Assembly: GCF_016907675.1 (NCBI RefSeq)
Contig: NZ_JAFBCJ010000001.1
Location: 2,170,001-2,234,000 of the forward strand
Origin: Geodermatophilus bullaregiensis
GTDB lineage: Bacteria > Actinomycetota > Actinomycetes > Mycobacteriales > Geodermatophilaceae
DNA length: 64,000 nucleotides
Direction: 5' to 3'
The notes below the pieces were generated by a model. It was given only the letters and a program-made list of their open reading frames with translations, was not told the DNA's origin and did no database searches. This document shows positions 60,715 to 64,000 of this stretch, in pieces. Made by a program: the position numbers and the translations under genes. How positions within the stretch are numbered: position 1 is the stretch's first letter; every line of letters starts with the position of its first letter.

Positions 60715-61506
60715 TCACGTCCCGGGTCGGGCCGGGTCCTGCCGGAGCTCGGTGGCCAGGGCGGCGGCGGCCGTCTGCAGGAGCGGCACGACCCGCGACA
60801 CCGCGTCCATGCCCAGCCGGCCCGCCGGACCCGACACCGAGATGGCGCCGGCCGCCGAGCCGCCGGGCACCGGGACGGCGACGCACCGGACGCCGGCCTC
60901 CTGCTCGCCGTCGTCGACCGCGTAGCCCAGCTCGGCGACGGACGGCAGCTGGGCGAGCAGCCGGTCCGGGTCGGTCACCGTGCGCTCGGTGCGCACCGGC
61001 ATGCCGGCCTGGGCGAGCAGCCGGCGCACGTGGTCGGGCGGCAGCTGGGCGAGCAGGACCTTGCCGACGCCGGTGCAGTGCAGGTGGACGCGCCGGCCGA
61101 CCTCGGTGAACATCCGCATCGAGTGCCGCGAGGGGACCTGGGCGACGTAGACGACCCGGTCGCCGTCGAGCAGGGCGAGGTTGGCCGTCTCGCCGATCTC
61201 GTCGACCAGCCAGGACAGGTGCGGCTGCGCCCAGGTGGCCAGCATCCGCGACGAGCTCTCCCCCAGGTGGATCAGCCGCGGACCGAGGACGTAGCGCCGG
61301 GACGGCAGCTGGCGCACGTAGCCCCGGGCCACGAGCGTGCGCACCAGGCGGTGGATGGTCGAGAGGGCCAGGCCGCTCTCGGCGGCCAGCCGGCTGATCG
61401 CGACCTCCCCTCCGGCGTCGGCCATCAGCTCGAGGAGCACGAACGCGCGCTCCAGGGACTGCACACCCTCCGCCGCGCCGCCCGCGGCTCCCCCACCGTC
61501 CGCCAC
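60715..61506 (-). CDS. IclR family transcriptional regulator
   Basis: A 263-residue regulator. N-terminal winged helix VQSLERAFVLLELMADAGGEVAISRLAAESGLALSTIHRLVRTL, then a GAF-like effector domain with MRMFTEVGRRVHLHCTGVGKVLLAQLP. GTG 61506 has GGAGG 6 nt upstream; a longer frame is rejected. It diverges from the glycolate oxidase operon, whose promoter contains a TTCC-N7-GGAA palindrome; regulation by glyoxylate or allantoin-type effectors is likely by family. Confidence 0.9.
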   Translation of the reverse strand: MADGGGAAGGAAEGVQSLERAFVLLELMADAGGEVAISRLAAESGLALSTIHRLVRTLVARGYVRQLPSRRYVLGPRLIHLGESSSRMLATWAQPHLSWLVDEIGETANLALLDGDRVVYVAQVPSRHSMRMFTEVGRRVHLHCTGVGKVLLAQLPPDHVRRLLAQAGMPVRTERTVTDPDRLLAQLPSVAELGYAVDDGEQEAGVRCVAVPVPGGSAAGAISVSGPAGRLGMDAVSRVVPLLQTAAAALATELRQDPARPGT

Positions 61507-61633: not shown

Positions 61634-61648
61634 TTCCACGATGCGGAA
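61634..61648. promoter_or_regulatory. Candidate IclR operator
   Basis: TTCCACGATGCGGAA, a TTCC-N7-GGAA palindrome of the kind bound by IclR proteins, with further TTCC half-sites at about 61613 and 61633. It sits between the divergent iclR and glycolate oxidase promoters. Confidence 0.6.
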
Positions 61649-61737
61649 CCATCGCCGGCCTCCCCTCCCGACTCGCTGAGCAGACGCGGCGGCGGGACCA
61701 TGACCGACCACGAGGACCCACACCGACAGGGAGAACC

Positions 61738-61980
61738 GTGAGCAGCAGCGCGGACGGAGCAGGCCTCGAGGTCACCGGCCCGACGGGCGACCGGTACGAG
61801 GAGGTCCTGACGCCGGGGGCGCTCGAGCCGGTCGGCGCTCGCGGAGTCCCGCGGCGACGCCTCCGCCTCCGGCCGCCGGGACGACGCCCGCGCGCTGTCC
61901 ACCGAGGTGGCGCCGGCCGACGGGTCCTCGGACCTCCTGCCCCTGCCCGCCCACGAGCGCACGCCACGAGGACGCCATGA
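61738..61980 (+). pseudogene. aceB: Malate synthase A relic (internal deletion and frameshift)
   Basis: A GTG at 61738 with AGGGAGA upstream opens a frame whose first about 30 residues (LEVTGPTGDRYEEVLTPGALE) match the N-terminus of malate synthase A. After about 61830 homology stops. In the +1 frame, 61838-61960 reads DDARALSTEVAPADGSS then DLLPLPAHER, resembling the very C-terminus of malate synthase (consensus-like LTLPAYER). About 1.4 kb of coding sequence would thus be deleted between the two. Malate synthase joins glyoxylate to acetyl-CoA. The hybrid frame ends overlapping the ATG of glcD, so it may still be translated as a coupling leader. Identification is from memory of the family; moderate confidence. 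Confidence 0.55.
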
Positions 61981-63464
61981 CCGCCATCGCCGAACCGGAC
62001 ACCTCCCAGCGCACCGCCGCCCTGGCCGAACGACTGCGGGCCGCGGTGGGCACGGAGCGGGTGCTCACCGACCGCACCCAGGTGCGCACCTACGAGTGCG
62101 ACGGGCTGGCCAACTTCAAGGTCACCCCGGCGATCGTGGTGCTGGCCGAGAACCGGCAGCACGTCGTCGACACGGTCCGGCTCTGCTCCGAGGCCGGCGT
62201 GCCGTTCGTGGCCCGCGGTTCCGGGACCGGGCTCTCCGGTGGCGCGCTCCCCCGTGCGGACGGCGTCCTGCTCGTGACGTCCCGGCTGCGCTCGATCGGA
62301 GCGGTCGACGCCGACAACCGCCAGGTGACCGTGGAGCCCGGCGTCATCAACCTGTGGGTCACCCGCGACGCGACGCCGTTCGACCTGGCCTACGCGCCCG
62401 ACCCGTCGTCCCAGCTGGTCTGCTCGATCGGCGGCAACGTGGCCGAGAACGCGGGGGGCGCGCACTGCCTGAAGTACGGCTTCACGGTCAACCACGTCCT
62501 GGGCGCCGAGGTGGTGCTGCCCGACGGCGAGGTCGTGCACCTCGGCGGGCGCGCCCCCGAGCACCCGGGCTACGACCTGCTGGGCGCGTTCATCGGCAGC
62601 GAGGGGACGCTCGGCGTCGCCACCGAGCTGACCCTGCGGCTGATCCGGGTGCCGGAGGCCGTGCAGACCATGCTCGTGGGCTACCGGTCGGTCGAGGACG
62701 CCGCCGGCACGGTCAGCGACATCATCGCGGCCGGGATCGTGCCCGCCGCCGTCGAGATGATGGACGCCCTGGCCATCGAGGCCGCCGAGGCCGCGGTGAG
62801 CTGCGGCTATCCCGAGGGCGCGGTGGCGGTGCTGGTCATCGAGCTCGACGGCCCCGAGGTCGAGGTCGAGGCCCAGTTCCGGCAGGTCGAGGAGATCGCG
62901 CGGCGGCGCAACGCCTTCGAGACCCGCATCGCGGCCGACGCCGCGGAGCGGGCGCTGATGTGGAAGGGGCGCAAGTCGGCGTTCGCGGCGGTCGGCCGGA
63001 TCAGCCCCTCCTACTTCGTGCAGGACGGCGTCATCCCCCGCACCAAGCTCCCCGAGGTGCTGGCCGAGATCGACCGGATGGCCGACGAGAGGGGGCTGCG
63101 GGTGGCGAACGTGTTCCACGCCGGCGACGGCAACCTGCACCCGCTGGTGCTCTTCGACGACGCGGTGGAGGGCCAGGCCCACGAGGCCGAGGAGCTGGCC
63201 GGAGCCATCCTGGAACTCTGCATCACCTCGGGTGGCTCCATCACCGGCGAGCACGGGGTCGGCCAGGAGAAGCGCATGAAGATGGGCAAGCAGTTCACCG
63301 CCGAGGACCTCGACACCATGCAGCTGGTCCGGTGCGCCTTCGACCCCGACGGCATCGCCAACCCGGGCAAGGTCTTCCCGACCCCGCGGCTGTGCGGGGA
63401 GCGGCCGGGCGTCCACAAGGGCGAGCACCCGGTGCAGGCGGCGGGCCTCGGCGAGGTCTTCTGA
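61977..63464 (+). CDS. glcD: Glycolate oxidase FAD subunit
   Basis: A 495-residue flavoprotein oxidising glycolate to glyoxylate. FAD domain VARGSGTGLSGGALP and GGNVAENAGGAHCLKYGFTVNHVLGAEVVLPDG; C-terminal FHAGDGNLHPLV and GEHGVGQEKR. Length and order are those of GlcD. GAGGA precedes the ATG. The glcE gene begins within its stop codon (TGATG), and glcF would be expected beyond the window. The IclR operator lies upstream. Confidence 0.93.
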   Translation: MTAIAEPDTSQRTAALAERLRAAVGTERVLTDRTQVRTYECDGLANFKVTPAIVVLAENRQHVVDTVRLCSEAGVPFVARGSGTGLSGGALPRADGVLLVTSRLRSIGAVDADNRQVTVEPGVINLWVTRDATPFDLAYAPDPSSQLVCSIGGNVAENAGGAHCLKYGFTVNHVLGAEVVLPDGEVVHLGGRAPEHPGYDLLGAFIGSEGTLGVATELTLRLIRVPEAVQTMLVGYRSVEDAAGTVSDIIAAGIVPAAVEMMDALAIEAAEAAVSCGYPEGAVAVLVIELDGPEVEVEAQFRQVEEIARRRNAFETRIAADAAERALMWKGRKSAFAAVGRISPSYFVQDGVIPRTKLPEVLAEIDRMADERGLRVANVFHAGDGNLHPLVLFDDAVEGQAHEAEELAGAILELCITSGGSITGEHGVGQEKRMKMGKQFTAEDLDTMQLVRCAFDPDGIANPGKVFPTPRLCGERPGVHKGEHPVQAAGLGEVF

Positions 63465-64000
63465 TGACCGCACCGACCGTCACCCGCCGGGCCGGTGGCC
63501 CCGACGACGCCGTCGGCGGGGTGGCGCCGCGCGAGGTCGTCCGGCCCGGGACCGTCGAGGAGGTCGCCGACGTCCTGCGGGCCGCGGCGGCCGACGGGCT
63601 CACCGTCGTGCCGGTCGGCGGGCGCAGCAAGCTGACCTGGGCGGCACCGCCGAGCTCCTGCGACCTGCTCCTCGACGTCACCGGCCTCGACCGCGTCGTC
63701 GAGCACGTGGCCGGTGACCTCACCGTCGTGGCCGAGGCCGGGGTCCGGCTGGCCGACCTGCAGGCGCAGCTCGGCCAGGCGGGCCAGCTGCTCGGCCTCG
63801 ACCCGCCCGAGGACGGCGCCACGCTGGGCGGCGTGGTGAGCGCGAACGCCTCCGGGCCCCGCCGCCTGCACTACGGCACCACCCGTGACCTGCTCATCGG
63901 CACCACCGTCGTCCTCGCCGACGGCACCGTCGCCCACGCCGGCGGCAAGGTCGTCAAGAACGTCGCCGGCTACGACCTCGGCAAGCTCTACACCGGGGCC
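63464..64000 (+). CDS. glcE: Glycolate oxidase FAD-binding subunit (partial)
   Basis: The first 179 codons are seen. The FAD-binding 4 fold is present: VVRPGTVEEVADVLRAA, VVPVGGRSKLTWA, then GATLGGVVSANASGPRRLHYGTTRDLLIGTTVVLADG and KVVKNVAGYDLGKL, typical of GlcE. It lacks nothing visible; the end runs past the window. ATG coupled to glcD. Confidence 0.92.
   Translation, partial: MTAPTVTRRAGGPDDAVGGVAPREVVRPGTVEEVADVLRAAAADGLTVVPVGGRSKLTWAAPPSSCDLLLDVTGLDRVVEHVAGDLTVVAEAGVRLADLQAQLGQAGQLLGLDPPEDGATLGGVVSANASGPRRLHYGTTRDLLIGTTVVLADGTVAHAGGKVVKNVAGYDLGKLYTGA

Follow-up and report, generated by a model that had tools for sequence, protein, structure and literature searches.

Organization of the glycolate locus

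The window (the whole 64,000-nucleotide stretch of Geodermatophilus bullaregiensis DNA that was analyzed) ends in a set of genes that, judged by their domain matches, reads as a putative glycolate operon. The gene for the FAD-linked glycolate oxidase subunit, glcD (61977..63464, plus strand), is intact (PF02913, E 6.1e-65; PF01565, E 8e-36). It is followed by glcE, an open frame with a PF01565 match that starts in the window (63464..64000, plus strand) and reaches position 64651 in window numbering. Genes for a glcF-like iron-sulphur protein and a lactate-permease-family protein (CCG/Fer4 and PF02652 matches) lie 3' of glcE, beyond the window. Divergent from the operon is an IclR-family regulator gene (60715..61467, minus strand; PF01614, E 4.8e-42; PF09339, E 8.2e-16), whose start is not fixed, the true one lying somewhat upstream of 61467. 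The Escherichia coli glc operon, glcDEFGB, likewise uses glcD, glcE and glcF for glycolate, along with a malate synthase and a permease; in the present operon, by contrast, the regulator is of the IclR type and the malate synthase was of type A.

The stretch between the regulator and glcD that spans positions 61738-61980 is, on the strength of its homology, a remnant of aceB (malate synthase A), once the first gene of the glycolate operon. In the following, G000 denotes the source genome of the window, other G numbers the genomes of relatives, and L numbers individual loci. When the eight intact aceB proteins of the same genus were used as tblastn queries against positions 61700-61980 of the window, both ends of the gene were found, in different reading frames. 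The first 33 codons, with GTG as the start instead of ATG, occupy positions 61738-61836 (plus strand; best match 24 of 33 identical, E 1.6e-11, to G018), while codons 494-536, the last 43, occupy positions 61838-61966 in the next frame (plus strand; best match 67% of 43 identical, E 1.1e-15, to G008). At the nucleotide level, 78 of 93 bases of the N-terminal piece and 100 of 123 bases of the C-terminal piece are identical to the aceB gene of G018 in ungapped alignment, compared with at best 50 and 67, respectively, in 1000 dinucleotide shuffles. About 460 of the 536 codons are missing, and the two pieces abut, with ∼1 nt between them, rather than the ∼10 nt given in the first-pass annotation. 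In its other structural claims, namely a decayed malate synthase A gene at the head of the glc operon, with fragments in different frames, the middle of the gene lost, glcD intact and the IclR gene present, that annotation was upheld.

The old TGA stop codon of aceB now reads CGA (61967-61969), seven bases before glcD, so that the C-terminal frame no longer terminates ahead of that gene. The N-terminal frame runs for 80 codons from the old start (61738..61980, plus strand), a possible leader, and ends in an ATGA overlap with glcD. Pfam returned no match for this 80-codon frame or for 40 codons of the C-terminal piece; the malate synthase domains are recognized in the intact copy of G008. The ribosome-binding site of the former gene, AGGGAG (61728..61733, plus strand), also precedes intact aceB in five type-A genomes (G004, G008, G009, G011 and G017; types refer to glcD) and in G018, but is absent before aceB in G013 and G021. 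The motif GAGGA (61968..61972, plus strand), read directly from the sequence, is likely to be the ribosome site of glcD itself.

Between the regulator and the operon lies a palindromic operator-like site, TTCCACGATGCGGAA (61634..61648, without strand), of which a genome scan detected this one exact copy. The sole copy with one mismatch (C1:372216) was dropped as a second operator-like site on account of its position inside a gene; five copies with two mismatches are also present. The pattern TTCCRCRWYGYGGAA was found at the locus in 7 of the 8 aceB-less same-genus genomes and in 6 of the 8 intact ones; of the 10 genomes of the genus that do not have the locus, 8 contain no copy anywhere. An IclR homologue stands beside 15 of the 16 same-genus loci compared, the locus of G013 being the one at which it was not found. 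The control region has been retained despite the loss of aceB, and the operator-like site would presumably be bound by the adjoining IclR protein.

Intact and decayed aceB genes in the genus

An uninterrupted aceB gene of 536 codons occupies the same slot, between the IclR regulator and glcD, in 8 of the 16 same-genus loci (G004, G008, G009, G011, G013, G017, G018 and G021), the outcome of a check that the first-pass annotation had called for. Not part of this set of 16 are G006, the glcD locus of G019 (60% glcD) and two additional stretches of the same genome. More widely, aceB stands directly upstream of glcD in 13 of the 80 named loci among the matches listed, 12 of them actinobacterial and one from Anaerolineae. 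The presence of intact aceB before glcD in relatives marks aceB-glcD as the earlier order, from which the present state derives. Among the matches listed, Modestobacter sp. VKM Ac-2982 (L077) has the nearest IclR protein (78%), together with an aceB product 80% identical to the G013 protein, while the nearest glcD is that of a Frankiales metagenome-assembled genome (83%). In G054, which belongs to another genus, glcD is present without adjoining aceB or IclR.

The other eight same-genus loci comprise six with remnants, G000 included, and two without any remnant beyond chance. Remnants were detected by tblastn in five of them. In addition to the 33 + 43 codons of G000, G023 carries a short start fused in frame to ∼105 end codons, with a significant MS_C match, and G001, G012 and G022 each carry a short start with ∼35-40 end codons. 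The sixth, G024, keeps ∼60 bases of the aceB tail, the score of which was reached by none of 300 shuffles. The remnants of G012 and G022 appear alike by eye, such that five remnant shapes plus complete loss can be distinguished. Tails read by eye in G005 and G025 were rejected, their scores being reached by 24 and 163 of 300 shuffles, respectively. An imperfect second copy of the last aceB codons and stop was seen by eye after the true stop in three loci, L056 (G017), L059 (G001) and L066 (G018), as if the tail of the gene had been tandemly duplicated.

The remnants are under relaxed coding constraint. The differences between the remnant of G023 and six intact genes are distributed evenly, at 18-21, 15-18 and 20-24 of 104 codons for positions 1, 2 and 3, respectively, whereas pairs of intact aceB genes, which are less diverged overall, differ at 0-4 of 104 at position 2 and at 4-21 at position 3. 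Its dN/dS (0.48-0.63, versus 0.12-0.46 for intact pairs) is elevated without reaching 1, in keeping with a deletion that came part-way along the branch, after a period of selection. For the 41 codons of the C-terminal piece in the window, dN/dS reaches 1.4-2.4, compared with 0.15-0.64 for intact pairs (one pair with small counts gave 1.3, and one was undefined). The N-terminal piece, too short at 31 codons for a verdict, differs most often at third positions (7-12 codons, versus 2-4 at position 1 and 6-9 at position 2). The remnant of G001 (dN/dS 0.15-0.56) is too young to display decay.

Malate synthase G and the fate of glyoxylate

The first-pass annotation had proposed that the organism may have lost the glyoxylate-condensing step here and had called for a search for a further malate synthase. 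The loss holds for the locus; for the organism it is ruled out by a malate synthase G gene, the presence of which among relatives tracks the loss of aceB. The source genome, a single contig, contains one malate synthase match (C1:316082), with the insertion domain of the G type. In the same genome, isocitrate lyase gave no match and glyoxylate carboligase none above the cut-off (best match 380 bits versus a cut-off of 711), which leaves malate synthase G as the evident sink for glyoxylate. To judge from this gene content, malate synthase G most likely condenses glyoxylate with acetyl-CoA. A role for aceB in the glyoxylate shunt was dismissed, the source genome having no isocitrate lyase match. 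Partial isocitrate lyase hits of roughly 90-110 residues, found in 17 of the 26 genomes of the genus, are read as other members of the superfamily.

Each of the aceB-less relatives examined likewise carries malate synthase G, predicted to do the same job. In the family survey, 112 genomes were searched, 44 of which have a glcD of this family, types A and B combined, that scores over 640 bits and is 64-100% identical. Malate synthase G was present in all nine genomes without aceB at the locus, versus 4 of the 33 with it (Fisher p 1.6e-6, uncorrected for kinship); 12 of these 33 intact genomes were examined as DNA, and 21 rest on the adjacency of hits. Two genomes were left out of this comparison, G111 (aceB ∼138 kb from glcD) and G097 (glcD at a contig end). 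Within the genus the corresponding counts are 8 of 8 aceB-less genomes versus 1 of 8 intact ones (p 0.0014). Both genes are kept in four genomes, G017, G100, G102 and G105. In G111 (L152, L154), IclR-aceB and glcDEF are ∼138 kb apart on the same contig, and a TTCC...GGAA palindrome was seen by eye before the separated glcD.

Directly after malate synthase G in the source genome is an HbpS/GlcG-like gene (L158). The DNA flanks of malate synthase G in G000 and G017 show, beyond the next gene, neighbours that are common to few relatives each, a pattern consistent with repeated gain or movement of the gene. The DNA match of malate synthase G extends through the HbpS/GlcG-like gene in 6 of the 15 other loci compared (L160, L164, L165, L167, L171 and L172 among the loci named), and the neighbours beyond it vary between subclades. 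In a second kind of glycolate cluster, with glcD 58-60% identical, malate synthase G lies a few kb downstream of glcD-glcE; L168 (G100), L171 (G019) and L172 (G052) are of this kind. No good copy of the operator-like site was found within 1500 bases upstream of malate synthase G (none of the 16 loci reached 13 of the 15 bases; a match in G054 has 12 of 15), and its membership in the IclR regulon, considered as a candidate, is not evident.

According to PMC3112382, the two isoforms of malate synthase owe their names to the growth substrate of E. coli, acetate for A and glycolate for G. In the present case the glycolate operon originally bore isoform A, and the G gene stands at another site, next to an HbpS/GlcG-like gene and without a good operator-like site. 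Isofunctional displacement, exemplified by the phosphoglycerate mutases, in which one form is gained and the other lost in scattered lineages, is described in PMC2964296. The gain and loss of forms in scattered lineages is alike in the two cases; in contrast to the mutases as presented there, the malate synthase forms share Pfam domains, and the displaced gene has left remnants at its old position. The literature matches listed, as represented by their excerpts, contained no description of this locus.

Recombination, gene loss and a possible role of the remnant

The similarity of the source genome to its relatives changes along the locus. Its upstream genes are nearest to those of G024, G005 and G025 (85-87% versus 73-82%), and the IclR gene separates the groups weakly (87-89%, G018 included, versus 85-87%, the distant G021 with 77% set aside). 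The N-terminal piece of aceB is closest to G018 (85% versus 76-78%). In contrast, glcD is of type A (91-92% versus 75-77%), and the same switch is seen in glcE (85-90% versus 69-73%) and in the next 1.9 kb (88-93% versus 74-77%). At diagnostic sites, the N-terminal piece has seven bases of type B (resident), one of type A and three of neither, versus six of type A (incoming), one of type B and one of neither in the C-terminal piece (Fisher p 0.010, with G018 as the only type-B aceB used to define the sites). The glcDEF cassette has thus been exchanged in G000, with one join inside aceB. On glcD and glcE, G000 groups with G023 (support 97), itself a relic, and given this grouping the aceB tail of G000 may have been decaying already on arrival. 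A common history of the two remnants, conceivable in view of this grouping, finds little support in the remnants themselves: of 123 bases, one remnant-specific base is common to both, compared with 10 found in G000 only and seven in G023 only.

Loss of aceB seems to have occurred more than once. Grouping of G001, G012, G022 and G023 is rejected by the AU test on glcD and glcE (p 1e-90), as is grouping of all eight aceB-less genomes on IclR (p 0.008), which favours several losses and disfavours a single one in the genus. The number of losses is approximate, since the locus recombines and intact aceB could be re-imported. In the rpoB tree, built from 29 of 30 genomes (G021 had no match), the placement of G000 is poorly supported (23 and 39). 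In the malate synthase G tree, G001, with a fresh aceB deletion and an almost unchanged tail, is the neighbour of G017 (support 83), which has both genes, and the two look like successive stages.

We consider the remnant to reflect isoenzyme replacement, a reading to which we assign a probability of about 0.88. In the ancestral operon, aceB-glcD-glcE-glcF-permease would have adjoined the IclR regulator. With malate synthase G encoded at another chromosomal site, aceB would have become dispensable; a deletion would then have taken most of the gene, and its ends would now be drifting. The operator-like site and glcDEF would have been retained for their continued part in glycolate oxidation. Recombination in G000 also exchanged the glcDEF half of the locus, the join falling within aceB. 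From the genes present, malate synthase G would take the glyoxylate flux, and we infer that its gain preceded the loss of malate synthase A. Ordinary pseudogene decay of dispensable bacterial genes is well known, as is the decay of a gene once an isoenzyme has been gained, and the present case is an instructive but ordinary isoenzyme replacement. As in other deletion remnants of bacterial genes, the ends are left, the body is deleted, the frame is broken and constraint is relaxed; unlike in ordinary remnants, a single genus here displays several stages and shapes, and the operon that the remnant heads is otherwise intact.

A variant in which the deletion and the exchange were one event, the 5' end of the resident aceB having been joined illegitimately to an incoming aceB tail with glcDEF, is possible but somewhat doubtful. 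The switch from G018-like to type-A similarity, the accompanying switch of diagnostic sites between the two pieces and the sister relationship of glcD and glcE to those of the relic G023 would all fit such a junction, but an ordinary crossover within intact aceB, followed later by deletion, gives the identical pattern. The single type-B aceB behind the diagnostic sites, the weak separation at IclR and the near-absence of remnant-specific bases common to G000 and G023 also weigh against it, and among the relics the switch was compared in G000 alone.

The first-pass annotation had further suggested that the remnant serves as a translated leader. Here the 80-codon frame and its ATGA overlap with glcD were confirmed, while coupling was unsupported. 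Ribosomes would bind at the former aceB site, read through the 80 codons and restart on glcD, and translational coupling between genes that overlap or lie close together is indeed documented (PMC6728339 and PMC10666635). The aceB ribosome site and start are kept in all five relics with type-A glcD (G000, G001, G012, G022 and G023) and lost in all three same-genus aceB-less loci with type-B glcD, which have a longer gap and their own start region; in G023, moreover, the two ends are fused in frame as 116 codons (L053:7421-7768), with the stop 4 nt before a glcD that has no GAGGA. Against this, 293 of 500 shuffles are equally open, so that an open frame of this length is expected by chance, and of the five start-keeping relics three have a leader that reaches glcD, those of G001 and G022 stopping 69 and 36 nt short. 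Furthermore, glcD keeps its own GAGGA in four of the five, the C-terminal piece in the window is without protein-level constraint, and the contrast between types A and B goes back to few independent events within the genus, perhaps three or four for type A and one for type B. We accordingly regard a leader function as unlikely, and equally so its corollary, that the loss of aceB left glcD output undisturbed. The broader proposition, that loss of aceB from a tightly spaced operon head is tolerated only if the start survives, the dead gene acting as a leader that drives glcD, and that the five type-A relics kept both start and ribosome site and the type-B loci, with their own glcD start region, lost both for that reason, is marginally less likely again.

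That the 80-residue frame encodes a distinct functional small protein is highly improbable. The frame is open and ends at the glcD start, but it has no Pfam match, its halves overlie aceB in two frames, and the leader frames of the five type-A relics yield differing products. Less credible still is an artefact of assembly or sequencing: the analysis worked from the assembly alone, but aceB remnants occur in five further genomes of the genus, and the pieces carry many substitutions. Isoenzyme replacement remains the preferred reading. The fused remnant of G023 (L053:7421-7768) would lend itself well to a test of coupling.

Taken together, these genomes form a natural series within one bacterial family, from both genes through a fresh deletion, decayed ends and the last few codons to nothing, a series that documents the replacement of an isoenzyme of central metabolism. 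The locus offers a testable case of which portion of its decayed leading gene an operon still requires, and for the metabolism of these bacteria it underscores that the absence of a pathway gene from its operon need not mean the absence of the step.
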